A DNA stretch of 25,592 nucleotides from the IMG/VR virus record IMGVR_UViG_3300042898_004645, positions 1-25,592 of that record; one strand, 5' to 3'. Of this stretch, positions 776-24,106 are shown piece by piece (the first letter of the stretch is position 1; each line of letters begins with the position of its first letter). Source of the DNA: a virus. The notes below the pieces were generated by a model. The model did no database searches. It was not told the DNA's origin and saw only the letters and a list, made by a program, of their open reading frames with translations. The position numbers were made by a program, and so were the translations under genes.

Positions 776-2512
776 CTATTTATTCCTAAATTTATCAAAT
801 TTCAGAATTATTCTATTTGATTTATTTATATCAATAGAGTTATTTTTATAATTTTCATTAGTGTCTTGTCCTTTGAATTCAACACCTTTAGTATCATACT
901 CAACCGATTTACCTTGTTCAAATGATTCTATTTTATCTTTAAGGTTATCAACAAATTCACGAGCTACTCTTTTCATAACATCTGTGTATTTATCAGTTTC
1001 ATATGCAACCATCGTAGCATCTTTATTATACTTTAAGAATCCCCAACCTTGAATATTTGTAATAGAAGGGTGACCACCAGAGTTTCTAGTTACTAGTTCC
1101 CAAACTGGAACTTTATATTCTTTAAGTATGGATAATTGATCGGCACTCAAATTATCATAAATAGTGTTCATAGCATCTTTAACATCTGAATTACTTATAT
1201 CAACTATCTCTCCACTCTTATAAACACAGTCATTATAAAATGCCTCAAGATCTGAGTATTTAAATCCAACACCCACATAATCTGGACCTTCTTCTTTTTG
1301 CATCTTTTTCCAGTCTTGAGATGTTTCAAACTCCTTCTTTATACAATCTAAAGAAACAAGAATCTTTGTTAAGATTGGTTGATGTTTAGCAATAACTTCT
1401 TTAGCAATCTCACCTAAATTAATGTCTTTCAGCATCTTTTCTTTAAATGGATTACAACTTACTTGTATAAGACCCATTGCCCATATTATACAAATAAAAT
1501 TAGAATCTGGAAAGTTTTTAAATGGAACATATCTATCATATGAACCAGGTTGAATCATATTACCACCACCATATTGTATAATAATTTTGTGTTTATCATC
1601 ATAATGAACACCTTTACCAACCTTAGCACCTTTTACAGATGAAAGGAATTTATGCTTACTACTATTAGGATCAAATTCACTAACATCTCCCGTATCTGGA
1701 TCTTCAATGAATCTATAATTCTTCATTCTCTCAATATAATTAGTAAGATTTTGCATAAGAACTTCAGGTTTAGCTAAAACACCAGCCCTATCAGATACAC
1801 GAGCATTATTAATATAATGTCTAATATTATTAAACATTGAATATAATGATGGATTACAATCTAAAACCATACACTCAAGAATGTTTCTATTAATATGGTC
1901 TCTTTTACCATCCATACTTTTAACAGTAATTCTCTTATTCTTATAAGCTAATAATAATCTATTGACTACAAATCCCATCATAAATCTATTCTTCTCACCA
2001 GATAGTCCTCTCTTAAATTGAAATATGGAATTCTGAATGTCATCTGGTGTTATATTATATGTAAGGAAATTAGCAGAATCAACAGTTCTAATTAGTTCAA
2101 CATCACCTGGTGTAAATATATCCGAGTAAGAAATCTCACCGGAGATTATCTCAACGTTTGAACGAGCTGGTTTGAAATAAGTTCCTTGTGTATCACCTGC
2201 ACCTACTTGCTTATCATGATGATCAGATTGTATTTTAAACATTGGTTTTCCGTGAGCAAAATCAACTAGTACGCATAAATTTCCTTCTTTATGATTCTTA
2301 ATAGCAAATTCCATTCCACCATATTGTATTTGGTGAGCATCAACAGTTTTTACTTGATAATAAGTTTCAAGGAAATATTTCATCGCAAGTGCTGAAGTAA
2401 CACCATCAAGATCTTTGTGAAAGTATATCTCAGCGGTTCTCATATCGCCAATTATTTTCTTGATATTTCTTATACCTACTTCTTCGTTTATGAATGAATT
2501 ATAATTCTGCAT
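776..2512 (-). CDS. DHH-family phosphoesterase with candidate capsid-targeting N-terminus
   Basis: 578 aa. The DHH (RecJ/NrnA-type) metal-site motifs are clear: F-H-K-D-L-D-G at residues 31-37 (H32, D34, D36), V-L-V-D-F at 81-85 (D84), and S-D-H-H-D at 96-100. A later S-G-G-H-P segment resembles the GGH substrate motif of DHHA1 domains. The family hydrolyses phosphodiesters in single-stranded DNA, short RNAs or cyclic dinucleotides; which substrate applies here cannot be read from sequence. At 578 aa it is longer than nanoRNases and near RecJ in size. The first ten residues, M-Q-N-Y-N-S-F-I-N-E, match the T4 capsid-targeting pattern cut after [L/I/F]-x-E. Its start lies inside the end of the upstream gene (14-base overlap), so the two are probably cotranscribed. 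DHH assignment strong; substrate unknown. Confidence 0.88.
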   Translation of the reverse strand: MQNYNSFINEEVGIRNIKKIIGDMRTAEIYFHKDLDGVTSALAMKYFLETYYQVKTVDAHQIQYGGMEFAIKNHKEGNLCVLVDFAHGKPMFKIQSDHHDKQVGAGDTQGTYFKPARSNVEIISGEISYSDIFTPGDVELIRTVDSANFLTYNITPDDIQNSIFQFKRGLSGEKNRFMMGFVVNRLLLAYKNKRITVKSMDGKRDHINRNILECMVLDCNPSLYSMFNNIRHYINNARVSDRAGVLAKPEVLMQNLTNYIERMKNYRFIEDPDTGDVSEFDPNSSKHKFLSSVKGAKVGKGVHYDDKHKIIIQYGGGNMIQPGSYDRYVPFKNFPDSNFICIIWAMGLIQVSCNPFKEKMLKDINLGEIAKEVIAKHQPILTKILVSLDCIKKEFETSQDWKKMQKEEGPDYVGVGFKYSDLEAFYNDCVYKSGEIVDISNSDVKDAMNTIYDNLSADQLSILKEYKVPVWELVTRNSGGHPSITNIQGWGFLKYNKDATMVAYETDKYTDVMKRVAREFVDNLKDKIESFEQGKSVEYDTKGVEFKGQDTNENYKNNSIDINKSNRIILKFDKFRNK

Positions 2513-2897
2513 ATAATTTACTATTTTTTGTATATATTAAAAATATTATTGAATTAACCTCAACATGTACCTTAACCAATTCTAAATCATAATAGTCTAG
2601 TCTAGATACTAGTTCAGATTGTCTTTCTAAAAAATCATCCGAGTTAATATATTGACTTAATTTATAAGGACTTGTTTTATCTAGTGATGTTAATCTAACT
2701 TGTATGTATGGTTTGAATCCTAACTTTATATCTTGATTAGTAACTTTAGTATCAAGTATATTAAATTGATGCAATTTCTTACCAAATGTTACTATTATTT
2801 GAAAATCATCAATGAAATCGCTAAATGTTTCTTTAATGTCATCTCTATTAACATTCCAAACTTCTTCCCTACCTTCAAAATATTTTAAGTAGTTCAT
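2499..2897 (-). CDS. Hypothetical protein between the amidoligase and DHH genes
   Basis: 132 aa, starting M-N-Y-L-K-Y-F-E-G. It overlaps the amidoligase stop by 4 bases upstream and the DHH start by 14 bases downstream, the usual sign of translational coupling in one operon. No domain that I recognise; alternating hydrophobic residues suggest a small alpha/beta fold. The start peptide resembles the targeting peptides of its neighbours, but no clear [L/I/F]-x-E site follows, so I do not count it with confidence. A TTTTTAATATATAC motif inside its 3' end could start transcription of the DHH gene separately. Confidence 0.75.
   Translation of the reverse strand: MNYLKYFEGREEVWNVNRDDIKETFSDFIDDFQIIVTFGKKLHQFNILDTKVTNQDIKLGFKPYIQVRLTSLDKTSPYKLSQYINSDDFLERQSELVSRLDYYDLELVKVHVEVNSIIFLIYTKNSKLYAEL
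2529..2546 (-). promoter_or_regulatory. Promoter-like motif inside the upstream gene, ahead of the DHH gene
   Basis: The minus strand reads TTTTTAATATATACAAAA about 18 bases before the DHH start codon. It is one of the best matches to the window-wide motif and lies within coding sequence of the 132-aa protein. Confidence 0.5.
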
Positions 2898-4270
2898 TTT
2901 TTATATGTGTCTATAATTCCTTTTTTATCACCTTTGTTTTCTGTATCAAATTTTGTATCAAAGAAGTTATCTTGGTTATCTACAATTTTAGTTTCAGAAG
3001 AAATTGTTGCATAAGGTCCTAATTTTCCACTTCTAAATACACCACCAGACATATCTCCATTTAAGAACCCACTCATAAAATAACAATCAACTAGTGATGT
3101 AGTTTCTACTCTACAGCTTAGAATTTTTGATGAATTAACATCTGAGGCTTCTATTTTTGATTTAGAAATTTGTGCCTTAGAAATTTCACATCCATAAAAA
3201 TTACAATTTTCAAAAATACCATCCAATATAGTACAATTAACAAATTCGATATTTTTTATCGTCATTGTAGATTTAACTTGAGCATCAATTATCTCTAACT
3301 TTTGAGTCAAGGTGACATAATTCAAAATACAATCTTTTAAATCGTCAGATGATTCGATTAGGTCCCAAAGTTTATCATAGATAGAAGTGAAATAAGAACT
3401 AACAAGTTCATACATATTACTTTGATCTATCTGCAGCTGTATAGTTGGATATTGAACAATAAAATTGTCATATTTAGAAAAGGATTTAAATTTATCAATA
3501 TTAGATTCTAAATATTTCTCTAGACTACTACAATCATTTTCATTAAATGATGCATCAATTGCATTATAGGAGTCTAGAATAAATCTATCGAGGAAATAAA
3601 CTAAATTTCCAATAGATTTCTCATAGTCTTGACCACCAATATATCGATATTCAATTCTTTGAGTTTCTTTATTATTATTGATATTTAAAAAGTTAATACC
3701 GTAGTACTTATCTTCTGGTAGATGTAAAGAATTTCTTATTGAGTCGATTGGAATATTAAAGAAGTCATATCCTTTGAATGGTATTATACTTTTGACTGAT
3801 TTAGCATATATATTTCCCTTTCTTGAAGGATAAAATGAATAAATTTCTTCTTCATTTGTGTTTAGTATTAATTTTAAAACATTAAGATCATTTAAATTTT
3901 TATCACCAAAAAATGATAAATTAAAATGTATTGAAGATTTCTCATTTGTATATCCATAGTTTTCAATAAATTTTGAAATCTTAACTAAGAAAAACTTAGC
4001 ATCATTGTACTCCATAGGTCCAGTTACCAACTCAACCATGTTTGAACCACCGGATAAGTCTGGCTCAATTTTGAAATTTTTATCATCTGGTACAAAGTCT
4101 GAATGGTAATGTCTAAACCCATGAACTCTAACAGGTGATAATTCCTTATTTAACATCTCAAGAGTTTTATAAAATGATAGATCCTTCATATAGAACTCGA
4201 ACTCAAATCCCACTTTGGCTTGTTTCAAACTACCATACTCATGTATAAATTTCTCTGAATATTTTCTCAT
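2894..4270 (-). CDS. Amidoligase-like enzyme fused to a pentapeptide-repeat C-terminus
   Basis: 458 aa. The first ~300 residues carry the pattern of the amidoligase / glutamine-synthetase-fold family (carboxylate-amine ligases): V-G-F-E-F-E-F near residue 20, K-I-E-P-D-L-S then E-L-V-T-G-P near 67-85, S-I-H-F-N-L near 113, and R-I-E-Y-R-Y-I-G-G near 208. These acidic, His and Arg positions fit ATP/Mg and substrate binding. From about residue 345 the sequence changes to short repeats (F-V-N-C-T, F-E-N-C-N, I-S-K-A-Q, I-S-K-S-K) typical of a pentapeptide-repeat beta-helix, over about 75 residues. The N-terminus M-R-K-Y-S-E-K-F-I-H-E fits a capsid-targeting peptide ending I-H-E. It heads the minus-strand cluster with the DHH gene. 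The family forms amide or peptide-like bonds; the target here is unknown. An ordinary glutamate-cysteine-ligase relative is the alternative. Confidence 0.68.
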   Translation of the reverse strand: MRKYSEKFIHEYGSLKQAKVGFEFEFYMKDLSFYKTLEMLNKELSPVRVHGFRHYHSDFVPDDKNFKIEPDLSGGSNMVELVTGPMEYNDAKFFLVKISKFIENYGYTNEKSSIHFNLSFFGDKNLNDLNVLKLILNTNEEEIYSFYPSRKGNIYAKSVKSIIPFKGYDFFNIPIDSIRNSLHLPEDKYYGINFLNINNNKETQRIEYRYIGGQDYEKSIGNLVYFLDRFILDSYNAIDASFNENDCSSLEKYLESNIDKFKSFSKYDNFIVQYPTIQLQIDQSNMYELVSSYFTSIYDKLWDLIESSDDLKDCILNYVTLTQKLEIIDAQVKSTMTIKNIEFVNCTILDGIFENCNFYGCEISKAQISKSKIEASDVNSSKILSCRVETTSLVDCYFMSGFLNGDMSGGVFRSGKLGPYATISSETKIVDNQDNFFDTKFDTENKGDKKGIIDTYKK

Positions 4271-4286
4271 TTTGTATATATTAAAA
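4271..4286 (-). promoter_or_regulatory. Promoter-like motif heading the amidoligase-DHH cluster
   Basis: The minus strand reads TTTTAATATATACAAA directly before the ATG at 4270. It is nearly identical to the motif before the DHH gene. The closeness to the start codon implies a very short leader. Confidence 0.5.
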
Positions 4287-4362
4287 TTTATGTGTTAATA
4301 ATAAATCAACACATCAAAAATACTTGCATATTGCAATATAAATTTATTATGAAGCAATATGT

Positions 4363-4377
4363 GATAATATATATAAC
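4363..4377 (+). promoter_or_regulatory. Promoter-like motif before the first plus-strand gene
   Basis: GATAATATATATAAC lies 29 bases before the ATG at 4407, in the divergent intergenic region opposite the minus-strand motif at 4271-4286. Confidence 0.45.
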
Positions 4378-4406
4378 AAATATGAATTTAAAATTAATAT
4401 TTGTTT

Positions 4407-4817
4407 ATGGATATAGACATTAATAAGATGAATTTTTTTTGTGTCTATGTTCGAACTAGGAAGAAGTTTGATAAGTTTATCAAGGTAAATAAGATAAAGA
4501 ACAAATACATAATTGATATTAGAAAAATTATTGAAGAAGAAGAAGCTAACTTCAATATTGATAAAACGTATTTAAAAATACTTATATTCAATAAAATACA
4601 GCAAGCAATAGAAAGAAAAAAAGACATTTATTATATTCCGGACTTTGAATCCGAATTTTCTATTGAAAAATTATTAAATTTAAAAAAGATACTCGGAAGC
4701 AATAGTTTTAACGTTCTAGTCTTTTATAACGAATTTAGGAAAAACCAAGAAATTATAGATGATCTTTTTGTAAATTTAAGTAAATTTAGTAATTCTCAGA
4801 TAATAAGAGATTACTAA
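4407..4817 (+). CDS. Hypothetical protein upstream of the tail gene block
   Basis: About 136 aa from the ATG at 4407 (M-D-I-D-I-N-K-M). The frame is open to a TTG at 4401, but ATG is the more likely start. The protein is Lys/Ile/Asn-rich, with a likely alpha/beta arrangement: a strand-like F-F-C-V-Y-V near the start, an acidic E-E-E-E-A segment in the middle, then F-N-V-L-V-F-Y near the end. That strand-helix rhythm recalls P-loop or kinase-like folds, but there is no P-loop. I do not recognise a family. It has its own upstream promoter-like motif and ends 33 bases before the large tail gene. Confidence 0.7.
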   Translation: MDIDINKMNFFCVYVRTRKKFDKFIKVNKIKNKYIIDIRKIIEEEEANFNIDKTYLKILIFNKIQQAIERKKDIYYIPDFESEFSIEKLLNLKKILGSNSFNVLVFYNEFRKNQEIIDDLFVNLSKFSNSQIIRDY

Positions 4818-4818
4818 T

Positions 4819-4836
4819 AATTAAATATATAAAATA
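4819..4836 (+). promoter_or_regulatory. Promoter-like motif heading the tail/baseplate block
   Basis: AATTAAATATATAAAATA lies 14 bases before the ATG at 4851. No comparable motif precedes the next two genes (7217, 7713), so it may drive a long tail transcript. Confidence 0.45.
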
Positions 4837-4850
4837 AATAAATTTCTATA

Positions 4851-7139
4851 ATGAGTAGATATACAGCATCACCATTCGGAATTGTTCCTGAATATATTTC
4901 AGATTTAAAGAATTTTAAATACACTAAGGCTGGTGAGGCAGTATTCGCCAAAGATCCAGAAACAGGTGTACAATCAACGAAATCACAAGAGTCATTATTT
5001 TCATCTTCACATAAGATTATTAGAACCGAAGGTGATAATGAATACCAGATCCCAGTTAATTACGATCCAAAATTACACGAAGATGAAGGATACGATTTAA
5101 CTACTACTAATATTATAAAACAACTAAGTGACAAATCGCCAGCAATGAAATTAAAATATGCTGACTTTGCATATTGTAGAGACTTTGGAGTGTATCCAAA
5201 CAATAGATTAATTATATGTAGAAAATTTGGTGGTCCAGTTGGTGATGATTTGAATTTAGTTAAATCTCCAGCCGTATCTACAGTAATAAGTTGGTTCGAT
5301 GAGGCATCACTTCCAGTTTCAATTGATTTTGGAGTTAACTTTGATGATGCTGAGGGTAGTTTTAAAAATGTCCTAAACAATATGGGTAAAGATGTAGGTT
5401 TGGATAAAGTCGGTATCCAACTTGGAGATGTTGCTACTAAAGGATTTAACTTTCTACCCTTACCTGGTATTTTTGAACCATTTACTAAGGGTATTATCAA
5501 TAATATTTTCGGTGACGGAACTGTAAATCCAAATACCGTGTCTGGAGCTCCAAATCTAATTAAAGAGGCTAAACAGAGAAAATTGATTACAGACGATCAA
5601 ACAGGATCAGGTCTTATTGGTAAGATTACTGTTTCAGTGAAATGTTCTTGGGAACAGAAATTTATAATGGGTCAAGATCCAACTCATGTCTATTTTGATT
5701 TACTTAGAACTATACTACACTTCGGTGGTGAAGACGGAACTTTTTATGCTGGTGGTAATGCAGCGAATGTTGTAAAGAAATTTTTAGATATTTTGAATAA
5801 CCCCGTTAAATTTATCCAAGATATACTTGCTGGACTTGTTAAATCAATAACCAAAATTATAGATGATGTGAGTAAATTGATTAAAAAGTTTTTTGACGAA
5901 GCAAAGATAAAGAAGAGCACGTCGGAAGATGATGATAATTTTGAAAAGACCATTGCAAACAAAACAGAAACTGAGAAGCAAGTTGCTAGAGATGCAAGAA
6001 AAGCTGAACAAACTAAGAAAGAAAATGCAGCAGTGGACGCGACGAACAAAGGCCAAGATACCCTGGCGAATAAGGTGACCAGTAGCTTGAAGAATTTATT
6101 ACAAATTGGAACTAGTCAGATAGGTAATAAATACAAACACGTCCTATTGGGAATAGTAAGTGCCCTTACAGGACAACCATCAACACCTTGGCATGTTACA
6201 ATTGGTAATCCATTGAAACCTATATTTTCCTGTGGAGATTTATATACTTCTGGTGTCAAATTGACACTCGGTCCTACTTTGGCATTCAATGATCTACCAT
6301 CAACTATAGATATTGAATTCACACTGACTAGTGGTAGAAATTATGGAATCGGTGAGATATTTAGAAAACTAACAACAGGTGATGTAAGAATACAAAGTAA
6401 ATCTGCACCATCTTTCTATAATGACGAAGGAGTAATTGAAGAAAATACAAATCAAGATAGTGGAGCTCCCATTAATGATGGTAAAGATATATCAGATGGA
6501 TTACAACCTTACGAGGTTAACGCACAATCAAAAGTCGATTCAGTTAATGCTGTTGGTTCGGTTTCAACTAATGCTGCTCAAATTAATCCAGATCCTTACT
6601 CAAATCCTATTCAGTCACCTATACAAGCAGGTGCACAAGGAGTTGCACAAGGAGTACAAGGAGGTGCACCTGCTGGTGTACAAGGCGGTGCACAAGCAGG
6701 TGCACAAGGAGTACAAGGAGCCTCTCCTGTTGACAGTGCATTCGCAGAACGTGTTGCAAAAACGAAAAAAGAAGAAGCTGAGGAGGATAGATTGAATGGA
6801 ATAACCAAACCGGTTGAAGAACCACCACAGCCATGGGTACCTGGTAAATCATCACATGCTGGTGGTCAAAGAAACCAACAGGGTATTAGAATTGCGTATA
6901 ATGTTTTTAATGGTACTACTCCAGGTACTTTTACAGTAAAATGGGATCTTGCAGATACTGTATATACTGAGGTAACAGGATCAAGGGACAAGAGGACAGG
7001 AGGACAGGCAGAGTCAGCACCATTTAATTCTATATCAGAAGCTATGGAATTTGGTAGGCAAAAAATCGAACCAGAATTTCTTAAGGCCTTAGCAAATAAA
7101 GGACTCACACCTATTCCTGATGGGTTCAATACCCAGTAA
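4851..7139 (+). CDS. Large tail/baseplate structural protein with Gln-Gly-Ala repeat
   Basis: 762 aa. Assigned as a virion structural protein by context and by a segment near residues 450-510 (G-D-L-Y-T-S-G-V, L-G-P-T-L-A-F-N-D-L-P, then I-G-E-I-F-R) of a kind I associate with contractile-tail baseplate or tube-junction proteins. Residues 320-400 are Lys/Asp-rich and probably coiled-coil or disordered. Residues about 588-625 are a low-complexity Q-G-A-Q-A-G-A-Q-G-V-type repeat. A compact domain follows (about 660-755) containing F-N-G-T-T-P-G-T-F-T-V-K-W. It is the first gene of a co-oriented block with the LysM-like protein, hub and amidase. The exact virion position (T4 gp48/gp54-like junction or other) is not proven. 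Confidence 0.65.
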   Translation: MSRYTASPFGIVPEYISDLKNFKYTKAGEAVFAKDPETGVQSTKSQESLFSSSHKIIRTEGDNEYQIPVNYDPKLHEDEGYDLTTTNIIKQLSDKSPAMKLKYADFAYCRDFGVYPNNRLIICRKFGGPVGDDLNLVKSPAVSTVISWFDEASLPVSIDFGVNFDDAEGSFKNVLNNMGKDVGLDKVGIQLGDVATKGFNFLPLPGIFEPFTKGIINNIFGDGTVNPNTVSGAPNLIKEAKQRKLITDDQTGSGLIGKITVSVKCSWEQKFIMGQDPTHVYFDLLRTILHFGGEDGTFYAGGNAANVVKKFLDILNNPVKFIQDILAGLVKSITKIIDDVSKLIKKFFDEAKIKKSTSEDDDNFEKTIANKTETEKQVARDARKAEQTKKENAAVDATNKGQDTLANKVTSSLKNLLQIGTSQIGNKYKHVLLGIVSALTGQPSTPWHVTIGNPLKPIFSCGDLYTSGVKLTLGPTLAFNDLPSTIDIEFTLTSGRNYGIGEIFRKLTTGDVRIQSKSAPSFYNDEGVIEENTNQDSGAPINDGKDISDGLQPYEVNAQSKVDSVNAVGSVSTNAAQINPDPYSNPIQSPIQAGAQGVAQGVQGGAPAGVQGGAQAGAQGVQGASPVDSAFAERVAKTKKEEAEEDRLNGITKPVEEPPQPWVPGKSSHAGGQRNQQGIRIAYNVFNGTTPGTFTVKWDLADTVYTEVTGSRDKRTGGQAESAPFNSISEAMEFGRQKIEPEFLKALANKGLTPIPDGFNTQ
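6622..6722 (+). repeat. Imperfect tandem repeat encoding Gln/Gly/Ala/Val low-complexity linker
   Basis: The units are variants of (G)GTGCACAAGGAGTACAAG. A 20-base stretch, CAAGCAGGTGCACAAGGAGT, occurs twice, about 70 bases apart. It stays in frame within the 762-aa structural protein and encodes a flexible linker. Such repeats can change length by slippage. Confidence 0.8.
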
Positions 7140-12020: not shown

Positions 12021-12650
12021 ATGAAATGGATTAAACAATTTAAACAATTTAAAGAATCACTTCAAATTGACTTGACATTCAATTCAATAGATATAATGGA
12101 ATCTTTGAATATCTGGCAAGATATTTTATTAAAATCAATCTCAGCTGAGCCAGTTGATATATTCGATACATTAAAGTTATCAAATGATTTAAAAAGTAAA
12201 TTAGATTTGGATACTTTATCTGATTTAGTAGAATTTTTAAATTCATTATCATCAATCGGATTAAAAAAGTCACCTCTACAAAATACAACAGACTATCAAA
12301 CATTTTTGAATAAGCCGTGTAAATTTATGTTTATATATGACTTCAATGCTAATGAATTAGAAAATCCGGAATATTTAGCTTTTCAAAGTTGGAATGATAC
12401 TCTAAAAAAATGGGATGAAACTAAACTATTTAAAGTAAAAGATGATGTTAAAAAATTCTATGATAAATTAACGAGTAAAACTATTGAAATTGTGGATGGT
12501 TCGGAAAATTATATCTATTCCACTTCAAATGGTAACGATTGGGAGTTACAAAACATAGATAAAGAGAATGATGTCTATACTAGAATTCTAAGAAAAGAAG
12601 AATTGCAAAAAATTCTAGATGAAAGTAAAATTACCTTAAATATTATTTAA
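12021..12650 (+). CDS. Hypothetical protein with candidate capsid-targeting N-terminus
   Basis: 209 aa, beginning M-K-W-I-K-Q-F-K-Q-F-K-E-S. The F-K-E at residues 10-12 after a basic/aromatic start fits the candidate capsid-targeting pattern. The rest is acidic and Lys/Asp-rich: a helical N-terminal half with D-L-V-E-F-L-N-S-L near residue 74, then a mixed region with W-N-D-T-L-K-K-W-D near residue 125. I do not recognise a family. Its end overlaps the convergent J-domain gene by 15 bases, leaving no room for a terminator. Confidence 0.75.
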   Translation: MKWIKQFKQFKESLQIDLTFNSIDIMESLNIWQDILLKSISAEPVDIFDTLKLSNDLKSKLDLDTLSDLVEFLNSLSSIGLKKSPLQNTTDYQTFLNKPCKFMFIYDFNANELENPEYLAFQSWNDTLKKWDETKLFKVKDDVKKFYDKLTSKTIEIVDGSENYIYSTSNGNDWELQNIDKENDVYTRILRKEELQKILDESKITLNII

Positions 12651-13232
12651 TTTATTCTCAATAAAATTTAGAATAATTTTTAGTTTATCGTCTTCGCTAC
12701 TAGATTTCAACCACTTAAAGGTATAAGTGGATTCTAAAAATGAAATTTGTGATTTATAATTTATAATTTTATCTTTTACCTGTTCTAGAATAGATTCACT
12801 CCATTCAAATTCAATCATTAACTCTGATGAAACTTTATATAAAGTCACTAAATCATTTATTTCATAAGCACTAGTCGCTTCTAAATATAACTCATTTAGT
12901 TTAGGATTCTTAATTTTATCTGGATGAGTCGATTTTACAATTTTTCGATATATCTTCTTAACATCTGAATCAATTGTTGGCTTACCCAGTGGCTCAGATT
13001 CGACTTCAATATCATTAATACTTGATTGATTAGATATACTATTAAATTTAATAGTATTTTTATCTTTATAAATACTTCTCAGCTCTGGATATCTATCCAA
13101 TATAGTTTCAACAGATTCTAAAAAAACATTATTAGACTCTCTAATTATCTCAGATTGATATAGGTAATCAGATTCAATAAATTGTAGTTCTTTAATTAAC
13201 CTTTGAAATTCAAGGGACTTTAGTCTAGACAT
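12636..13232 (-). CDS. J-domain (DnaJ-like) co-chaperone
   Basis: 198 aa. Residues ~85-145 look like a J-domain: V-K-K-I-Y-R-K-I-V-K forms helix II, the diagnostic H-P-D is at 103-105 (S-T-H-P-D-K), and the following helix contains L-E-A-T-S-A-Y-E. The H-P-D loop is what stimulates the ATPase of DnaK. The ~80 residues before it and ~50 after it are helical and unassigned. No Gly/Phe region or zinc domain is present, so it is a type III J-protein. It lies antisense within a structural region and may recruit host DnaK for virion assembly or host takeover. Its start at 13232 has a weak promoter-like motif just upstream. Confidence 0.72.
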   Translation of the reverse strand: MSRLKSLEFQRLIKELQFIESDYLYQSEIIRESNNVFLESVETILDRYPELRSIYKDKNTIKFNSISNQSSINDIEVESEPLGKPTIDSDVKKIYRKIVKSTHPDKIKNPKLNELYLEATSAYEINDLVTLYKVSSELMIEFEWSESILEQVKDKIINYKSQISFLESTYTFKWLKSSSEDDKLKIILNFIENKLNNI

Positions 13233-16085: not shown

Positions 16086-16403
16086 ATGGACATCCGTTAT
16101 AACATTAATAGAATTCATTCTGTTTTAAATGAATCATTTGTAAATGTTGAAATATCTGAAAAATCATCACTAAAGTTTGGAAAATACTTTGAAATTAGTA
16201 TTAAAGAATCAAAAGAGGTTAAAATGATAATTCCATTCAAAAATATTGATAACGTTAATAATTTCGAATTTTACTATTTATCAAATCCAATAAATGAAAA
16301 CTCAAATTTAGTAACTCGAAATAGTGATGCTGATTCAATATCCAAAATTATAGAAGATATTCTATCAAATGATAGATTTGATAAGGACTATTTAAAAAAT
16401 TAA
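16086..16403 (+). CDS. Small hypothetical protein with possible capsid-targeting N-terminus
   Basis: 105 aa, beginning M-D-I-R-Y-N-I-N-R-I-H-S-V-L-N-E-S. The L-N-E at 14-16 fits the [L/I/F]-x-E cleavage form, although this leader is longer than in the other candidates. The remainder is a small mixed domain with K-F-G-K-Y-F-E-I-S-I and I-S-K-I-I-E-D-I-L. No family recognised. It is followed 7 bases later by the baseplate wedge gene. In T4-like genomes a short gp25-like protein often precedes gp6, but the gp25 signature (E-P-R) is not visible here, so I do not assign it. Confidence 0.7.
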   Translation: MDIRYNINRIHSVLNESFVNVEISEKSSLKFGKYFEISIKESKEVKMIIPFKNIDNVNNFEFYYLSNPINENSNLVTRNSDADSISKIIEDILSNDRFDKDYLKN

Positions 16404-16410
16404 TTTATAG

Positions 16411-18180
16411 ATGGCTACTTTTACTGAAATTACCTTCCAAAATATAAAAACTCAAATAGAGAGATTTTTACAAGTAGAACATAATAAAGCAAGTATATTA
16501 TTTTCACCTGCATCACCGTATGGGCAAATTCTTAATGTAGTTCAGAATTTACACCAATTGTCTTTTTTATATTTGAAAAATTCAATAAATCAATTTGATT
16601 TAAGTGATCCAAACTCTAATAATCGTACAGTAATTCAAAATGCTGCTCTACTCGCTGGTCATATACCGGGAAGAGGAATTTCAGCAACTGGTAATCTAAA
16701 ATTGACCGTAAAGTCAGGAATCGATCTTGAAAAAGAACTTAAAGGTGGTAGAGTTACATTTAGTAATAGAGTTTTGTTAAAAAATAAAACTAATTCATTA
16801 GAGTATTCGCTCTATCTAGGACAAGAAAAGATAACTTATCTAATAAATCCATCAACTAGAATATATCTACCAATAATTCAAGGAAAATACGAAACTACAA
16901 ACTTCACCGGAAGCGGATCCATAAATCAAACTTATCAAGTAACACGGTCCGGTGTCCAAGATATTGAAAATTTTAACACAGAGGTTTTAGTAAATGGTAA
17001 CTTTTGGTCAATCAAAAAACATTTATACGAACTAGCACCAAATGAAGAAGGTTGTGTTGTTAGAACTGGATTCGATGGGGGTATTGACATAATATTTGGA
17101 AATGGAAATTTTGGAGCGATACCACAAATAGGGGCAGTAATTACAGTTACATACATTTTAACAGATGGTGATGATGGAAACATATTTAGAAGAACTTTTA
17201 ATGATTGGAAGTATGTCGATGACGCAACTGATGGATATGGTAACTCAATTGATGCGAGTAAAATTTTCGATACTGCTATCTATAATGATATAAATTTTGG
17301 AGCGGATGGTGAAAGTTATGTTTTTACTAGAAATATTTTACCAATCGCATCTAATAATTTTGTATTAGGTCTTCCACAACAATATGCTTATGAAATAAAA
17401 AAATTAGGAGTTTTTTCTCACGTTAACGCATATGAAAATGATAATATGGTTTTTATAGTTGCTACTCCTAATATAAAATTATTTAAAAATCAAAATTCCG
17501 ACTATTTCTCTGTAAATATAAGAGCCTTTGAACTAGATAATTATGAGAAATCTAAAATAGATAAATATCTAAGAACTAATGGAAACATACAACTTACTAG
17601 AAAATATAGAATTGACTCACCATCATTATCGTATTATATAATGAATGTATTTGTAATAAGATATTCAGACTCAAATGATGATGCAATCCAAAGTCAAGTA
17701 ACTGATGTGGTTTCAGAGTATTTTTTAAATTTCAGTCGTATAGATAGAATACCAAAATCTGATTTAGTTAAAGAGATAGCAATGATTAATGGCATACATT
17801 CTGTTGATGTTCAATTTATATCTAGGAAAAATGAAGATTATCACAGAGAAGAAAATATAAGACAACAAAATACCATGAATGCTGCAAGTAACTTTAAAAC
17901 TAACGCACTTTCTATGCCAAATACTGATATAGCAATACCTGGTTCAGCTATCGAACCTATAAAAATGAATGTAGATTATTCATCGACTAAATTAATTGGT
18001 CTAGATCCAGTACTTGGTGATATAATATTTGAACCTAGTGAGATTCCGATAATTCGTGGAGGGTGGTATGATAGAAATGGAATTTATCTCTCGGATGAAA
18101 TCTCTGGAACAGGTCTTAAATCAATTAACATTATCAAAAAAGGCGTAGTTGATTCAAAATTAAGAAATAATGTTGTATAA
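16411..18180 (+). CDS. Baseplate wedge protein, gp6 / gpJ-like (Baseplate_J family)
   Basis: 589 aa. The layout is that of Baseplate_J proteins: a helical N-terminus with I-L-F-S-P-A-S-P-Y-G-Q-I-L-N; a segment with N-R-T-V-I-Q-N-A-A-L-L-A-G-H-I-P; a central beta-rich region with G-F-D-G-G-I-D-I-I-F-G-N-G-N-F-G near residue 220, and V-T-Y-I-L-T-D-G-D-D-G-N near 247; then alpha/beta wing domains with Y-L-R-T-N-G-N-I-Q-L near 385. The F-G-N-G-x-x-G block is the most diagnostic. In contractile phages this protein dimerises to form the iris ring of the baseplate periphery. T4 gp6 is 660 aa, so the length fits. Its neighbours are small unknown genes in the same unit. Confidence 0.85.
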   Translation: MATFTEITFQNIKTQIERFLQVEHNKASILFSPASPYGQILNVVQNLHQLSFLYLKNSINQFDLSDPNSNNRTVIQNAALLAGHIPGRGISATGNLKLTVKSGIDLEKELKGGRVTFSNRVLLKNKTNSLEYSLYLGQEKITYLINPSTRIYLPIIQGKYETTNFTGSGSINQTYQVTRSGVQDIENFNTEVLVNGNFWSIKKHLYELAPNEEGCVVRTGFDGGIDIIFGNGNFGAIPQIGAVITVTYILTDGDDGNIFRRTFNDWKYVDDATDGYGNSIDASKIFDTAIYNDINFGADGESYVFTRNILPIASNNFVLGLPQQYAYEIKKLGVFSHVNAYENDNMVFIVATPNIKLFKNQNSDYFSVNIRAFELDNYEKSKIDKYLRTNGNIQLTRKYRIDSPSLSYYIMNVFVIRYSDSNDDAIQSQVTDVVSEYFLNFSRIDRIPKSDLVKEIAMINGIHSVDVQFISRKNEDYHREENIRQQNTMNAASNFKTNALSMPNTDIAIPGSAIEPIKMNVDYSSTKLIGLDPVLGDIIFEPSEIPIIRGGWYDRNGIYLSDEISGTGLKSINIIKKGVVDSKLRNNVV

Positions 18181-18195
18181 AATAATAAATAATAT

Positions 18196-18450: not shown

Positions 18451-18465
18451 TTTCAAAGATGTTCC

Positions 18466-18515
18466 GATAATATATACCAAAATCAGTAAAACCATTTTAT
18501 ACTATTAATATATAA
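18466..18515 (+). promoter_or_regulatory. Two promoter-like motifs in tandem ahead of the metabolic unit
   Basis: GATAATATATACC at 18466-18478 and ATTAATATATAA at 18504-18515 precede the ATG at 18539. Genes downstream to 22609 are closely spaced with no further clear motif, so these may drive the whole unit including purA and the methyltransferases. Confidence 0.5.
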
Positions 18516-18538
18516 TAGACAAATTATAAGAGAATTAC

Positions 18539-19162: not shown

Positions 19163-19164
19163 TC

Positions 19165-19491
19165 ATGATTACACTATCTGAAAAAGCATATCAGAAAGTC
19201 AAACAACTTATAGAAGAATCAAACTATGACTCAACTTATTTTTTAAAAGTTGAAGTAGTTGGTGGAGGTTGTTCTGGTCTTAAATACAACATGGACTTTA
19301 CAAATCAATCAAATGACGATGATCAAGTATTTGAACATCTAGATTTAAAAGTCGTCACGAATAAAAAATCTCTATTATATTTAATTGGAACCGAATTGGA
19401 CTATTCAGATGGTCTAAACGGTAAAGGATTTGAGTGGAATAACCCTCAAGCCACACGCACTTGCGGATGTGGAGAATCATTTAGTTTATAA
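19165..19491 (+). CDS. A-type iron-sulfur carrier (IscA/ErpA/HesB family)
   Basis: 108 aa, the normal size. Fe-S carriers of this type deliver clusters to apo-enzymes through three conserved cysteines, all present: C36 in G-G-G-C-S-G, and C100 and C102 in T-C-G-C-G-E-S-F at the C-terminus. The start I-T-L-S-E-K-A also fits. It begins 2 bases after the preceding stop. HesB/IscA genes recur in marine T4-like phages, where they are thought to support Fe-S enzymes in infected cells. Full-length and apparently functional. IscA versus ErpA cannot be decided, so no symbol is given. Confidence 0.92.
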   Translation: MITLSEKAYQKVKQLIEESNYDSTYFLKVEVVGGGCSGLKYNMDFTNQSNDDDQVFEHLDLKVVTNKKSLLYLIGTELDYSDGLNGKGFEWNNPQATRTCGCGESFSL

Positions 19492-19498
19492 ACTTATT

Positions 19499-19520
19499 GT
19501 ATTTTAAATCTATAAAATAC
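19499..19520. terminator. AT-rich hairpin between iscA-like gene and purA
   Basis: GTATTTTA/TAAAATAC is an 8-bp perfect stem with a 6-base loop just after the iscA-like stop. There is no T-tract after it on the plus strand, so it is at best a weak terminator, RNA-processing or pausing site. Confidence 0.3.
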
Positions 19521-19524
19521 GTAA

Positions 19525-20727
<1,203 letters not shown>

Positions 20728-21489
20728 ATGGAAAATATACTTTATCAGGACGATTGCTTTAATATCTTTCCTAGATTTGAAGATAAATCAATAGATTTGA
20801 TATTATGTGACTTGCCTTATAATACGACAAGAGCAAAATGGGATATTCAATTAGATTTGAATTTATTATGGGAACATTATAAAAGAATAATTAAAGATAA
20901 TGGAGCTATTTTATTATTTGCGCAAACACCATTTGATAAAGTTTTAGGTTGCTCAAATTTGGAGTGGTTGAAATATGAATGGATCTGGGAAAAAACACAA
21001 GCAACTGGATGGTTAAACGCTAAGAAGATGCCTATGAAATCACATGAGAATATCTTAGTTTTTTATAAAAATCCACCAACCTATAATCCTCAAAAAACTA
21101 CTGGTCATAAACCGATGCACTCATATACAAAAAGACCAGAGGTTCAGAATAAAACTGAACTATATGGAGAGATGAATCGTGTTATATCAGGAGGTGGTGA
21201 TACTGATAGATATCCAAGATCTGTTTTGGTTTTTTCATCAGATAAACAGAAAAATAAATTAGATGGAACAATCCACCCAACCCAAAAACCATTAGCACTT
21301 TGTGAGTATTTAATCAAAACATATACAAATGAAGGAGATTTAGTTCTAGACAACACTGCTGGTAGTGGAACTACTGGATTAGCAGCTAAAAATACGAATA
21401 GGAAATATATTTTAATTGAAAAAGAAGAAAATTGGTGTCAAGTAATTAAAAAAAGAATTCCTGATATCTATGAGTATAAACATTTATAA
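20728..21489 (+). CDS. DNA methyltransferase, beta-class (D-L-P-Y type), probably adenine-N6
   Basis: 253 aa. Motif IV is D-L-P-Y-N-T-T at 28-34, a known variant of D-P-P-Y in a large phage/bacterial family with D-L-P-Y-G-T-T. The S-adenosylmethionine motif D-N-T-A-G-S-G-T-T-G comes near residue 206. Catalytic motif first and SAM motif last is the beta-group order. Intervening W-I-W-E-K, N-A-K-K-M-P and H-E-N-I-L-V-F-Y segments are typical of the family, as is H-P-T-Q-K-P. The enzyme would methylate specific DNA sites. No restriction endonuclease is adjacent, so it is an orphan likely used for protection from host restriction or for marking phage DNA. The start codon directly follows the purA stop. 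Confidence 0.9.
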   Translation: MENILYQDDCFNIFPRFEDKSIDLILCDLPYNTTRAKWDIQLDLNLLWEHYKRIIKDNGAILLFAQTPFDKVLGCSNLEWLKYEWIWEKTQATGWLNAKKMPMKSHENILVFYKNPPTYNPQKTTGHKPMHSYTKRPEVQNKTELYGEMNRVISGGGDTDRYPRSVLVFSSDKQKNKLDGTIHPTQKPLALCEYLIKTYTNEGDLVLDNTAGSGTTGLAAKNTNRKYILIEKEENWCQVIKKRIPDIYEYKHL

Positions 21490-21509
21490 TCTAATTCTAT
21501 ATAAAACTT

Positions 21510-22247
21510 ATGACAAACCAAATTCACAATTTAGATTGTATAGATTTCATGAAAACTCTTCCAAATGAGTCCATTGATTTGACAATTACTGACCCACCAT
21601 ACACTATTAATTATTCTTCTTATAGAACAAAGACCAAGGTTATTGCAAATGATGATAATAAAGATTGGATATCTCCTTTTTTTGAAGAATTGTCCAGAGT
21701 GGTTAAAAAAGGATCACACCTATATTGTTTTTGTGATTTTGAAATGTCTTCTGATTTTGTTGCTGAGATTAGAAAATATTGGAAAGTTAGAAATCTTCTA
21801 TGTATTCCAAGAACTATTAAAGGAAATGGTGGTGATAGAATCTTTCAACAACAATTTGAGTATGTTATCTTCGCAACTCGTGGTAATAGAACCGAAGGTA
21901 GAAAATTCAATCAAACACAAATATTAAAACCATCAGAAACTTATCTTAAAGATAAAAGATATAATGCTAAAGAATGGTTGTATAGATTACCAGATTATTG
22001 GTACTGGACAAAAGCATCAGAATTCAATCATGATAGATTACATCCAAATCAAAAAAATGTTGATTGTTTAAAAGATATGATTGCCTTATCATCAAATCCA
22101 GGTGAGATTGTTTTTGATCCTTTCTGTGGTAGTGGTTCAACACTCTTAGCCGCTAAACTTCTAGATAGAAAATGGATCGGATGTGAAATTGATGCTAAAT
22201 ATGTTGATGTATCTAATAATAGATTAAAAGTAAAAGAAACGGTTTGA
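21510..22247 (+). CDS. Second DNA methyltransferase, beta-class (D-P-P-Y)
   Basis: 245 aa. Motif IV T-D-P-P-Y at 27-31 and SAM motif F-D-P-F-C-G-S-G-S-T near residue 209, with H-P-N-Q-K-N before it, again give the beta-group order. D-P-P-Y allows N6-adenine or N4-cytosine methylation. The sequence between the motifs differs clearly from the preceding methyltransferase, so the pair is not a recent tandem duplication and probably recognises different sites. It begins 20 bases after the previous stop, in the same unit. Confidence 0.9.
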   Translation: MTNQIHNLDCIDFMKTLPNESIDLTITDPPYTINYSSYRTKTKVIANDDNKDWISPFFEELSRVVKKGSHLYCFCDFEMSSDFVAEIRKYWKVRNLLCIPRTIKGNGGDRIFQQQFEYVIFATRGNRTEGRKFNQTQILKPSETYLKDKRYNAKEWLYRLPDYWYWTKASEFNHDRLHPNQKNVDCLKDMIALSSNPGEIVFDPFCGSGSTLLAAKLLDRKWIGCEIDAKYVDVSNNRLKVKETV

Positions 22248-22609
22248 AATATTTTCCTAACATAGATAAATTAAAAAATATTGCAGATATACTACAATAC
22301 GATACATTAAATGCTAAGTCTAAAATAGAATATGTAATACATTCATATCTTTTAGAAGACTATAAAGTGTTTGATAATAATAAAGATTATTGGATGACTT
22401 CAACAATGATTAGTAACTCCTTATTTAATAAAGATTTTTTAAAGTTAATTAAAAAACAAAGTCCTAATTATATCTATTCTCAAATTGATCAAGTAATAGT
22501 GTCGGTTTTACTTCAAAGATCTTCTGAACAACCTAAAAAGAGAATAGCAATTGATAGTATGAATCCGGATTTAGTAGATGATGAGCCTTTTAGAGTTGTA
22601 TCAGAGTAA
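22244..22609 (+). CDS. Hypothetical protein with TTG start coupled to the methyltransferase stop
   Basis: 121 aa if translation begins at the TTG at 22244, which overlaps the methyltransferase TGA as TTGA. No ATG occurs in frame until about residue 50, so the TTG start is the better choice; it implies translational coupling. The sequence starts with K-Y-F-P-N-I-D-K-L and is Asn/Lys/Ile-rich and helical. The C-terminal third, with K-K-R-I-A-I-D-S-M-N, may be an extended tail. No family recognised. It ends exactly next to the stop of the convergent gene. Confidence 0.6.
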   Translation: MKYFPNIDKLKNIADILQYDTLNAKSKIEYVIHSYLLEDYKVFDNNKDYWMTSTMISNSLFNKDFLKLIKKQSPNYIYSQIDQVIVSVLLQRSSEQPKKRIAIDSMNPDLVDDEPFRVVSE

Positions 22610-22777
22610 TTATTTACTAGAATTCTTATATTTATCATAAAGGTGCCATATAGAAATAGCGCTACATTCCAAAAGAAAAAAGAATACCTTATCAGTTGGT
22701 TCATCATTTGTTAAAAATGTATAAAACACAAATGTAATAATTACAAGAACTTCTAATATTGATATAAATTTCTTCAT
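22610..22777 (-). CDS. Small single-span membrane protein
   Basis: 55 aa from the ATG at 22775-22777 to a TAA at 22610-22612. It starts M-K-K-F-I-S-I-L-E-V-L-V-I-I-T-F, giving a hydrophobic span at about residues 4-23, and has a second moderately hydrophobic stretch (V-F-F-F-L-L-E-C-S-A) at 31-40. It fills the gap exactly: its stop abuts the stop of the plus-strand gene. Upstream lies a terminator that separates it from the next minus-strand gene. Function unknown; short enough that chance cannot be excluded. Confidence 0.5.
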   Translation of the reverse strand: MKKFISILEVLVIITFVFYTFLTNDEPTDKVFFFLLECSAISIWHLYDKYKNSSK

Positions 22778-22787
22778 TACGTTAAAA

Positions 22788-22814
22788 CAAAATACCCGGA
22801 GATTGTCCGGGTAT
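22788..22814 (-). terminator. Intrinsic terminator after the 74-aa protein gene
   Basis: ATACCCGGA/TCCGGGTAT forms a 9-bp stem with a 5-base loop (22792-22814). On the minus strand it is followed by TTTTGTTTT. It lies 33 bases beyond the stop of the minus-strand gene at 22847. Confidence 0.8.
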
Positions 22815-22846
22815 AAATATACAAAAAGTTTTTAAATTTCCAAAAA

Positions 22847-23071
22847 TTAATTATTAATTGTCATATGTTTATCACCTTCGTAATCCCAAACATGGAAAAG
22901 ATATGAATTTTTTACAGTTTCAAGTCCAGTAGGGTAATAATCCCAACCATCTTTATCTAAACCAACTTCCATTTCTGGATCTAAGCTTTGAAGGTATTCA
23001 ATTATATCCTTTACCTTAACCGGAACTCTTTCAAATTCTGTATTTTCATTAAACTTTTTAATATGTTTCAT
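22847..23071 (-). CDS. Small hypothetical protein with candidate capsid-targeting N-terminus
   Basis: 74 aa, beginning M-K-H-I-K-K-F-N-E-N. F-N-E at 7-9 fits the [L/I/F]-x-E form closely and in the expected position. The remainder, about 65 residues, includes V-K-D-I-I-E-Y-L-Q-S-L-D-P-E-M-E-V and D-K-D-G-W-D, a pattern of a small, widely seen phage/bacterial domain of unknown function. It lies downstream of the basic 137-aa gene and is followed by a strong terminator, so both probably form one short unit. Confidence 0.75.
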   Translation of the reverse strand: MKHIKKFNENTEFERVPVKVKDIIEYLQSLDPEMEVGLDKDGWDYYPTGLETVKNSYLFHVWDYEGDKHMTINN

Positions 23072-23088
23072 ATTATTTATTTATTTTT

Positions 23089-23502
23089 TTAATATCCGGA
23101 ACCTGCTCCCCAGTTATCATTATTATTTTTAGTTCCTATTCCTAATTTAGAAAAAATAGAATCTCTCATTTCGGTGTCTGTGGATCTAAAGACGATAAAC
23201 TCATCTGCCAATCCAATATTTTTTTCTAACCATTTTTTCTCATCATCTGTAAGAAGACTTTGATTTTCATTGAATGAGCTGAATTCTTTAATATGTGTTA
23301 ATTTATGATCTTTTGCCAAAAACTTTTCACCATCAATATTTTTAGAATTTGGTTCTCTGTGAGATCCTTTCTTTGGTTTTTCAGCCAAATGATCTTCACT
23401 TGATAAAGTTGAATTATTTGGTTTTTTAGAAGAAACGTGACTTTGTTTTTTCATGTCTTTAGACAGCTTCTGGTCTTTGTGGTTTACTTGTTTATGAGCC
23501 AT
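23089..23502 (-). CDS. Lys/His-rich basic protein with an internal targeting-like peptide
   Basis: 137 aa. Residues 1-66 are very hydrophilic and rich in Lys, Ser, His and Asn, surely disordered and possibly DNA-binding. Residues 69-79 read T-H-I-K-E-F-S-S-F-N-E, the same form as the N-terminal peptides of the neighbouring genes, then N-Q-S-L-L. The C-terminal 58 residues form a small helical domain (D-D-E-K-K-W-L-E-K-N-I-G-L) and a Gly/Asn-rich end. If the peptide is a cut site, the basic region would be removed or separated inside the head. No family recognised. Confidence 0.72.
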   Translation of the reverse strand: MAHKQVNHKDQKLSKDMKKQSHVSSKKPNNSTLSSEDHLAEKPKKGSHREPNSKNIDGEKFLAKDHKLTHIKEFSSFNENQSLLTDDEKKWLEKNIGLADEFIVFRSTDTEMRDSIFSKLGIGTKNNNDNWGAGSGY

Positions 23503-23520
23503 TTTAAAAAAATATATTTT

Positions 23521-23534
23521 CTTATATATTAAAA
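23521..23534 (-). promoter_or_regulatory. Promoter-like motif heading the 137-aa/74-aa unit
   Basis: The minus strand reads TTTTAATATATAAG, 18 bases before the ATG at 23502; a full match to the motif. Confidence 0.5.
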
Positions 23535-23578
23535 TATATTCTCTAAATTTTTAGTCCTATCAATAATATAAGGAAAAA

Positions 23579-23590
23579 TTTAATATATAA
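23579..23590 (+). promoter_or_regulatory. Promoter-like motif before the 170-aa protein gene
   Basis: TTTAATATATAA ends three bases before the ATG at 23594, leaving almost no leader, as also seen for the gene at 4270. Confidence 0.48.
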
Positions 23591-23593
23591 AAC

Positions 23594-24106
23594 ATGAGAA
23601 AAATTTTACCATTCAAAAATTTCTTTGAAGAAATTTATTATGATAGTAGAAAAGATATTGAGGGATATGTTGATACTAATGATTTAGTTGGTCAAAGACT
23701 TTGGTTCCACACTAATAGAACACATAGGAATAACGCTCAAAATGGTATGATAGGTGTTTATGATACAACTAGAGGTGGTAGAAAAACTGGATTAGCTGGT
23801 AAATACACAAATGAGGTTAGATTAAAATCTCCAATATATTTTCAAACATCTGAAGCAGGTTCTAAAACAATTAAACAAAGAGGTGATAGAGTATTAATTG
23901 CCGGTGTTTCTGGTATTGTAGTTCCTACCAATAATGATAATACTGGGATGATTAAAATAACTTATAATCCTTTTGATGTTGCTTATTTTCATGAAATAGG
24001 TGATGAAGATAAGAATGAAATTATATCTGGAAGTGAGGTTTATTTCAATGCCTCAGAAGATGGCAATTGGGAAATTTGGGTCAAAGACCCGGTTTATTCT
24101 AAATAA
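23594..24106 (+). CDS. Hypothetical protein with candidate capsid-targeting N-terminus
   Basis: 170 aa, beginning M-R-K-I-L-P-F-K-N-F-F-E-E. Both F-F-E and F-E-E fit the cut-site form. The rest is a compact beta-rich domain of about 155 residues: V-G-Q-R-L-W-F-H-T-N near 32-41, G-V-Y-D-T-T-R-G-G-R-K-T-G-L, V-R-L-K-S-P-I-Y-F near 77-85, V-L-I-A-G-V-S-G-I-V-V near 100-110, and N-P-F-D-V-A-Y-F-H-E. H39 and the following beta pattern gave a passing resemblance to ADP-ribosyltransferases, but the motif set is incomplete. Function unknown. It stands alone, opposite the tRNA genes. Confidence 0.75.
   Translation: MRKILPFKNFFEEIYYDSRKDIEGYVDTNDLVGQRLWFHTNRTHRNNAQNGMIGVYDTTRGGRKTGLAGKYTNEVRLKSPIYFQTSEAGSKTIKQRGDRVLIAGVSGIVVPTNNDNTGMIKITYNPFDVAYFHEIGDEDKNEIISGSEVYFNASEDGNWEIWVKDPVYSK

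Follow-up and report, generated by a model that had tools for sequence, protein, structure and literature searches.

Unrelated proteins of a huge-phage clade share a short N-terminal peptide that probably serves as a T4-type capsid-targeting sequence

Why do several otherwise unrelated proteins encoded on one viral DNA fragment begin with the same kind of short, basic and aromatic peptide ending in [F/I/L]-x-E? The fragment, hereafter the window, is the 25,592-base record IMGVR_UViG_3300042898_004645, which is the whole of that genome's record, and a sequence-only reading of it had taken these peptides for capsid-targeting sequences (CTS) of the T4 type, cut by a gp21-like prohead protease. 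Every peptide named in that reading was found in the window sequence; its observation of a shared tag is partly confirmed here and its capsid-targeting interpretation partly supported. A short peptide is common to the starts of many unrelated proteins in the relatives of this phage, and these peptides are probably T4-type CTSs, extensively employed in the huge-phage clade that includes the window; through them the tagged proteins would bind the prohead core, be cut, be packaged and be injected.

The window covers part of the genome of a huge phage, the nearest relatives of which measure 635-642 kb. It carries tail and baseplate genes, including that of a gp6-like baseplate wedge protein (16411..18180, plus strand; phrog_219, E 2.1e-12), which is untagged and was used as the query for finding relatives. 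The search matched 31 phage records, with identities of 67.5% and 63.1% to the uncultured phages LR756502 (642 kb) and LR745206 (635 kb), ~40% to LR756501 (735 kb) and LR756504 (636 kb), and 32% to LR756500 (462 kb). Huge genomes of 634, 636, 642 and 735 kb were reported in a 2020 survey, which assigns its largest genomes to the Mahaphage clade and predicts Bacteroidetes as hosts (PMC7162821). Genes were called piecewise with ATG starts only, and those spanning the ends of the 20-kb pieces were lost. The bases examined comprise all of LR745206, T4 and pT24, 640,000 of 642,428 in LR756502, 400,000 of 735,411 in LR756501, 320,000 of 636,363 in LR756504, 460,000 of 462,018 in LR756500, 160,000 of 167,814 in MaF61, 120,000 of 132,562 in SPO1, 40,000 of 102,679 in crAss001, 400,000 of 497,513 in phage G, 220,000 of 224,680 in PTm1 and 180,000 of 219,372 in PAU. 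Proteins below 60 aa were dropped from the motif, matrix and family counts and those below 50 aa from the pattern counts.

When the motif is defined loosely, as [FIL]xE with the Glu at residues 7-16, and the expectation is drawn from shuffled starts, 10 of the 30 window proteins match against 6.0 +/- 2.1 (z 1.9), so that the window alone is no proof of a tag. The excess over shuffled starts that the sequence-only reading implies is therefore not significant in the window, but it is clear in the related genomes, with 242/902 proteins against 141 (z 9.6) in LR756502, 243/881 against 147.5 (z 8.9) in LR745206, and 132/496 against 78 (z 6.7), 82/367 against 59 (z 3.4) and 141/609 against 115 (z 2.6) in LR756501, LR756504 and LR756500, respectively. 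Elsewhere z is 1.8 in T4, 4.9 in pT24, 1.0 in MaF61, 1.9 in SPO1, 0.7 in crAss001 and 0.4 in phage G. A first run of expectation maximization (EM) converged on the initiator Met and was set aside. In the two nearest genomes, EM then recovered a strong motif, K-[YH]-[LI]-K-x-[FY]-[NEK]-E-[FS], at 17-20% of N-termini; it also assigned 23-25% of N-termini in phage G and MaF61, to weak motifs, and the fraction alone thus means little. A position weight matrix (PWM) trained on LR745206 and applied to held-out genomes at a threshold of >= 8 found 139/902 N-termini of LR756502 against 6/3,020 internal Met sites and 0.4% of shuffled N-termini. The yield is lower in LR756501, LR756504 and LR756500 (12/496, 17/367 and 30/609, against 0.3-0.6% internally), amounts to 3/30 in the window against 0/99 internal Met sites, and in the controls is 2/239 in T4, 4/270 in pT24, 2/481 in phage G, 1/148 in SPO1, 1/165 in MaF61 and 0/40 in crAss001. 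A four-profile mixture (at T >= 9, 138/943 in LR756502 against 24/2,899 internal sites, and 2/31 in the window) had poorer contrast because any Glu raised its score, and the single PWM and fixed patterns were preferred to it.

A known peptide of this kind is that of the T4 internal protein IPIII, which begins MKTYQEFIAEA. According to PMC9026906, ten residues suffice, mutagenesis assigns targeting mainly to residues 4 and 7 and processing to 8 and 10, and gp21 cuts after L/I-x-E. The tag matches the IPIII residues assigned to both functions, and a pattern spelling these four functional residues, [WYF]xxF[ILVFM]xE (hereafter the T4-CTS pattern), occurs at 28/943, 21/913, 24/530, 16/378 and 21/651 N-termini of LR756502, LR745206, LR756501, LR756504 and LR756500, where 1.2, 1.5, 0.8, 1.0 and 1.0 are expected, an enrichment of 14- to 31-fold; four phages in which no S77 (gp21-type) protease was detected are without such an excess (MaF61 0/174, SPO1 0/158, crAss001 0/41, phage G 1/507). 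The pattern occurs at 2/31 N-termini and at no internal site of the window, and at 3/251 in T4 against 0.6 expected, two of these being the annotated ipII and ipIII. In the same phage the start of the hypothetical 54-aa product of gene 61.1 (NC_000866 18966-19130), MKTFKEFIKED, fits the pattern, and the product is possibly an internal head protein that has so far escaped notice. Broader patterns (A, B or C) match 114/943 (12%), 103/913 (11%), 49/530, 27/378 and 34/651 N-termini in the same five relatives, 4.6- to 11.6-fold over internal windows, as compared with 1.2- to 3.5-fold in T4, pT24, MaF61, SPO1 and phage G; the shares in the two nearest genomes, where ~1-2% is expected by chance, are unlike that of T4 with its 3 pattern matches. 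In the neighbourhood of the 80 IMG/VR protease loci described below, 1,419 additional genes yield 79, 17 and 16 matches to A, B and C, where 7.8, 1.0 and 5.5 are expected.

Residues outside the T4-CTS pattern agree with a predicted cleavage site, namely Asn at P2 in 13/30, 7/26, 18/31, 11/19 and 11/22 tags (the background frequency ahead of a Glu being 6-9%) and the small residues that follow the tag Glu. Judged by the match rates at internal sites and in shuffled starts, ~10-14 of the 114 proteins of LR756502 that fit the fixed patterns do so by chance; the FkbM methyltransferase (piece L039) and the RNA-ligase homologue of LR756501 are probably such chance matches. Tags are also missed, the untagged set holding the starts MIITKYAKFLES and MIPKYSNFTLINEN.

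Within the window, comparison with orthologues supports four of the six N-terminal examples of the sequence-only reading. The protein that it named DHH (776-2512, minus strand) begins with the tag MQNYNSFINE (2483..2512), the predicted cut lying before EVG. Residues N9-E10-E11-V12-G13 are invariant in 12/12 aligned rows, window included, of an alignment that left out duplicates and a relative with an incomplete start (L216), and an unbroken [YF]xxF[ILV]NE is present in 9/12. This tag has a PWM score of 9.0 and matches the T4-CTS pattern; in a predicted model of the protein, residues 1-15 have a predicted local distance difference test (pLDDT) value below 50, the model mean being 69.3. The 170-aa protein (23594-24106, plus strand) carries the tag MRKILPFKNFFE (23594..23629), with a predicted cut before EIYYDSRK; it scores just 4.1 with the PWM, yet fits the T4-CTS pattern. 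Its relatives start with MKYLKTFE|EIYYDSRK and MKSFYEYVKVRDINE|DYYDSRK, so that the body (E/D)xYYDSRK is conserved behind three different tagged starts (four loci with two distinct starts, and the window). While these two proteins fit the T4-CTS spacing, the other tagged proteins of the window are of variant types. The 209-aa protein (12021-12650, plus strand) has the tag MKWIKQFKQFKE (12021..12056; PWM 10.2) with a predicted cut before S, and [FY]KES is kept in 5/5 rows, window included. The 74-aa protein (22847-23071, minus strand) has MKHIKKFNE (23045..23071) with a predicted cut before N and the highest PWM score in the window, 21.2; its single relative, in LR756502, is tagged with the start MHLRRYNES, and a search of IMG/VR found none. 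A 132-aa protein (2499-2897, minus strand) that was absent from the earlier list probably carries the tag MNYLKYFE (2874..2897; PWM 5.6): M[NK]YLK[YK]FE starts 4/4 of its BLAST relatives, one of them 95% identical, and more distant relatives begin MKYLKYFE or MKYLKKFE.

The two remaining examples were rejected. The 458-aa protein called an amidoligase (2894-4270, minus strand) starts with MRKYSEKFIHE (4238..4270) followed by Y, and the Glu is present in 3/19 orthologues (aligned residue Q in 12, E in 3, D in 2, K in 1 and H in 1), counting 19 of 20 since the LR756500 copy has no comparable start. The 105-aa protein, with ...SVLNE before S (16086..16133, plus strand), keeps the motif in 0/2 orthologues. 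'DHH' and 'amidoligase' are retained as handles only, the former having a weak Pfam match (20.5 bits against a cut-off of 28.1) and the latter matching no amidoligase family. The internal tag-like peptide THIKEFSSFNE at residues 69-79 of the 137-aa protein (23266..23298; gene 23089-23502, minus strand) is kept in a 99% identical copy, and its Glu is missing in the only distant relative. A 207-aa protein (FKKF...K) and a 198-aa DnaJ-like protein were set against their relatives and not counted as tagged; the DnaJ-like and a 108-aa protein match the loose motif by position only. The DnaJ-like protein (12636-13232, minus strand; weak DnaJ match of 26.2 bits against a cut-off of 27.8) adjoins the 209-aa protein in a neighbourhood conserved in relatives. 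Low PWM scores were obtained for the tail, baseplate, guanylate kinase and adenylosuccinate synthetase-like proteins of the window, which also holds a tRNA-Arg (acg; 24111-24184) and a tRNA-Ser (gct; 25383-25468), both on the minus strand.

The bodies behind the tag are diverse. Upon removal of the first 20 residues, the 172 tagged proteins of LR756502 cluster into 147 families, the largest of 14, and the 147 of LR745206 into 137; likewise 54 proteins of LR756501 form 46 families, 38 of LR756504 form 36 and 37 of LR756500 form 28, the largest of 9. An alignment of the 150 longest of the 172 shows a conserved start, MKxLKxYxxF or MKxLKxxxE, and scattered majority residues elsewhere. Pfam returned 39 + 4 families (E <= 0.01) for 150 tagged proteins, and of 20 scanned singly 7 had a family match and 13 had none. 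For example, clear tags precede a T4-type RNA ligase (MKKLHRYNSFIKES), a PPK2 (MINNFIKFINEE), an IMPDH domain (MDTVIDLNNWQLFLNEK), a methyltransferase-like domain (MKIFNWQLFLEE) and a phage lysozyme (MRYIKTFNED). The untagged comparison set (the 75 longest proteins below 1,300 aa), which is longer than the tagged set and hence not size-matched, includes ribonucleotide reductase, tRNA synthetases, Hsp70, gyrase and the T4-type portal (25 of 73 families listed). PADLOC reported six families among 75 tagged proteins, mostly weak, which were not used; Acb1-like and 2'-5' ligase-like matches occur among these 75. The ribosomal protein S21 of huge phages, whose N-terminal extensions are reported as basic and aromatic in PMC7162821, was also considered and rejected as a tag bearer; it begins MLII or MLIV, untagged (4/5 genomes with an S21 match).

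Tag status is shared between orthologues of the two nearest genomes, whose bodies are ~56% identical: 35 pairs are tagged in both, 17 and 15 in one only and 306 in neither (p 1e-24), with some switches of tag type and a few discordant pairs that resemble start-call errors. The agreement holds between LR756502 and LR756501 (7, 1, 1, 56) and is weak between LR745206 and LR756501 (2, 3, 4, 61; p 0.055). Tagged genes also cluster in LR756502, with two runs of 10, the longest run over 1,000 shuffles having averaged 3.8 and never exceeded 8; the arrangement is suggestive of cargo genes collected in variable islands. Arrays of tagged genes lie in the first 40 kb of that genome (pieces L018-L019), where they make up 14/55 and 21/35 called genes. 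Among its MK[HY][LI]K starts, the residue-3 codons CAC and TAC account for 30/47, compared with genome usages of 33% and 22%, an excess that is possibly a trace of 5'-end copying between genes.

A gp21-type protease, which the sequence-only reading called for, was matched in 5/5 relatives by the S77 family (PF03420; 20.1-44.8 bits, E 2.3e-12 to 1.1e-4) and at the 80 IMG/VR loci kept, these being the best 80 of 370. The same family is found in T4, pT24, PTm1 and PAU, and PF03420 was not detected in MaF61, phiKZ, phage G, SPO1 and crAss001. When nine proteases are aligned, the T4 gp21 residues His85 and Ser140, which we take to be catalytic, occupy invariant columns. The gp23-family capsid protein lies above its cut-off in 5/5 relatives, and its predicted propeptide ends in INE|N, INE|N, MNE|N, IHE|N and LYE|N; the corresponding sites are INE|S in PTm1, ILE|S in pT24 and LME|N in PAU, and INEN is present in 65/65 capsid proteins recognised at the 80 loci (61 by pattern, 4 by reading). 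The capsid [ILM]xE|N is a predicted cut site of the same kind as that of the tag, and the tripeptides INE and IHE also terminate window peptides. The capsid precursors (L202-L210) begin with KKW-x-P-[VI]-[LI]-E-like peptides (NKWKPLLEGE in T4), and some tags have a similar start, MIKKWxxF.

The reading frame of the protease continues into tandem repeats (YSEYLAENLDKNI), and this fusion to YSEY[IL]AEN repeats is present in 80/80 of the IMG/VR loci kept. Each of these frames holds 10-13 repeat matches, 774 spacings being of 14 residues and 77 of 42, and the consensus of 931 repeats is Y-S-E-Y-[IL]-A-E-N-L-D-K-N-I-A. Matches to [WYF]xx[FYL][ILVM]xE in the frame number 12 in LR756502, 11 in LR745206, 14 in LR756501 and 11 in LR756504. 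With a slightly narrower pattern, the frame ranks first among the called proteins of LR756502, LR756501 and LR756504 (11, 14 and 11 matches, the next protein having 2, 7 and 3) and only ties in LR756500, while in LR745206 it is split by a piece end and unranked. Scaffold repeat and tag share the spacing aromatic-x-x-aromatic-[IL]-x-E. The T4 gp23 site FGSFLTE|A fits the repeat pattern, and the capsid sites of the five huge phages are without aromatics at P4 and P7, so that aromatics are no general need of cutting. As the aromatics are common to the scaffold repeats and the type-C tags, and are targeting residues in T4, we propose that the tag functions as a single scaffold repeat. A fusion of protease and scaffold with tag-like repeats is new here. 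One protease-scaffold is encoded on a 68.5 kb contig (L329) of the sample that also gave the 42 kb contig closest to the window, but nothing joins these two contigs. A 1,691-aa protein of LR756501 (piece L103 from 1458, minus strand) also contains seven FV[KN]Y[LI][AI]E[IT] motifs spaced 58-61 residues apart, and its start, judged by eye, looks like that of a tail tape-measure protein.

These features can be set against known systems. As with the T4 CTS, a short N-terminal peptide with an aromatic at residue 4, Phe at 7, Ile/Leu at 8 and Glu at 10 (IPIII numbering) stands on unrelated proteins, together with an L/I-x-E-type site, an S77 protease and a gp23-type capsid protein. The T4 internal proteins are themselves described as diverse with a conserved CTS (PMC3012670), and the CTS may be a way in which T4-like phages take various proteins into the capsid (PMC9026906). 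Unlike T4, the huge phages possess the additional tag subtypes MKHLKxYKIFES and MKYLKKFNES. In SPN3US and phiKZ-type phages, the prohead protease similarly strips N-terminal propeptides from packaged proteins that are ejected, but according to PMC5694885 these are mostly longer than 100 residues, with one of T4 length (20); phiKZ, unlike the huge-phage relatives, has no PF03420 match. In the accessible portions of the open-access literature we found no description of capsid-targeting tags in these huge phages or of a tag that copies a scaffold repeat, nor did a targeted reading of a jumbo-phage survey from 2021 and a review from 2026, which led to prohead peptidases and injected proteins, yield such a tag.

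Protease and scaffold are also fused in other tailed phages and in herpesviruses, where, as here, both lie in a single open frame; we are aware of no cargo protein in those systems that bears a copy of a scaffold repeat. We lean towards the view that the cargo tag reproduces the scaffold repeat in detachable form, such that any protein acquiring one would enter the prohead core, be cut loose and be delivered, at least a tenth of the proteome being preloaded in this way. The tag aromatics would let the cargo N-terminus pack into the core as one extra YSEY[IL]AEN unit. Once active, the scaffold-fused S77 protease would cleave scaffold repeats, capsid protein and cargo tags behind the Glu of [ILMF]xE; the cut scaffold would disintegrate, the cargo would be released within the head, and the freed cargo would then be delivered into the host with the DNA.

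Several observations weigh against capsid targeting by a scaffold-like tag. No S77 protease was found in the window, which is a fragment, and in the relatives 4/5 S77 matches lie under the curated cut-off of 27 bits. The scaffold pattern has 2 matches in the frame of LR756500, 1 in pT24 and 0 in PTm1; T4 gp22, gp67 and gp68 contain no such repeat match, so that the protease-fused scaffold with its tag-like repeats is unlike the T4 core. The short tags MKYLKKFNES and MKHLKxYKIFES, which are common, are only a partial fit to the repeat. The T4-CTS pattern is without excess in the S77-bearing phages pT24 (1/282), PTm1 (1/290) and PAU (0/240); its excess marks this huge-phage clade and, weakly, T4, and not every S77 phage. 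With the broader patterns, controls in which S77 was not detected are slightly over expectation (MaF61 4/174, SPO1 4/158, phage G 9/507; 1.8- to 3.5-fold). Orthologues of LR756502 and the more distant LR756504 (1, 6, 3, 68) show no agreement in tag status, nor do those of LR756502 and LR756500 (0, 2, 3, 62), and two of the six N-terminal examples named in the window fail the comparison with orthologues.

Could the shared start have arisen without any such function? Base composition or selection at translation starts, with MK-rich starts in AT-rich phages, would account for a frequent Lys at residue 2, which all these phages have, and for the ease with which EM assigns N-termini to weak motifs in phage G and MaF61. 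Yet phage G (GC 0.30) has no such excess, shuffled N-termini fall short, the codons vary (for example, Lys5 is AAG in 24 and AAA in 23 of 47 starts), and the Glu and the P2 Asn lie beyond the first codons, making this explanation scarcely tenable. We regard it as equally improbable that one large paralogous gene family underlies the tag; the few multi-copy families noted above would be expected under paralogy, but the number of families approaches that of proteins in both nearest genomes, homologous bodies were not found behind the start, and the alignment of 150 tagged proteins conserves little beyond it.

Explanations that grant the peptide a function deserve more weight. The tagged proteins might be assembly factors associated with the core or scaffold, which are packed, cut and lost rather than delivered as effectors. 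T4 offers parallels, in that its core proteins are cut to fragments and mostly removed and IPIII influences head assembly (PMC9026906), but the tagged bodies are very diverse and some are enzymes useful in the host, such as the RNA ligase, PPK2, IMPDH and methyltransferase, and we consider this explanation unlikely. It is somewhat less likely still that the peptide serves as an address for some other phage-made location within the host, such as a membrane or a nucleus-like shell, its likeness to a protease site being secondary. Head targeting is inferred and many tagged proteins have no assigned function, which leaves room for such an address; the motif, however, is tandemly repeated in a protease-fused scaffold, and the tag ends in capsid-site tripeptides and contains the residues on which a proven capsid signal depends.

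Under the capsid-targeting reading, then, phages of this clade probably carry a large ready-made protein cargo into the host. If this is true, well over 100 different proteins of the 642 kb phage would be preloaded for the first minutes of infection. With the tag, proteins likely to travel in the virion could be listed from sequence for phages that are among the largest known, most of the tagged proteins there being without a family match. It predicts exact new N-termini for mass spectrometry, and the purpose of the unknown genes of huge phages would become partly testable. The scaffold, bearing the same motif in tandem unlike the T4 core proteins, also suggests how a cargo signal may be recognised.

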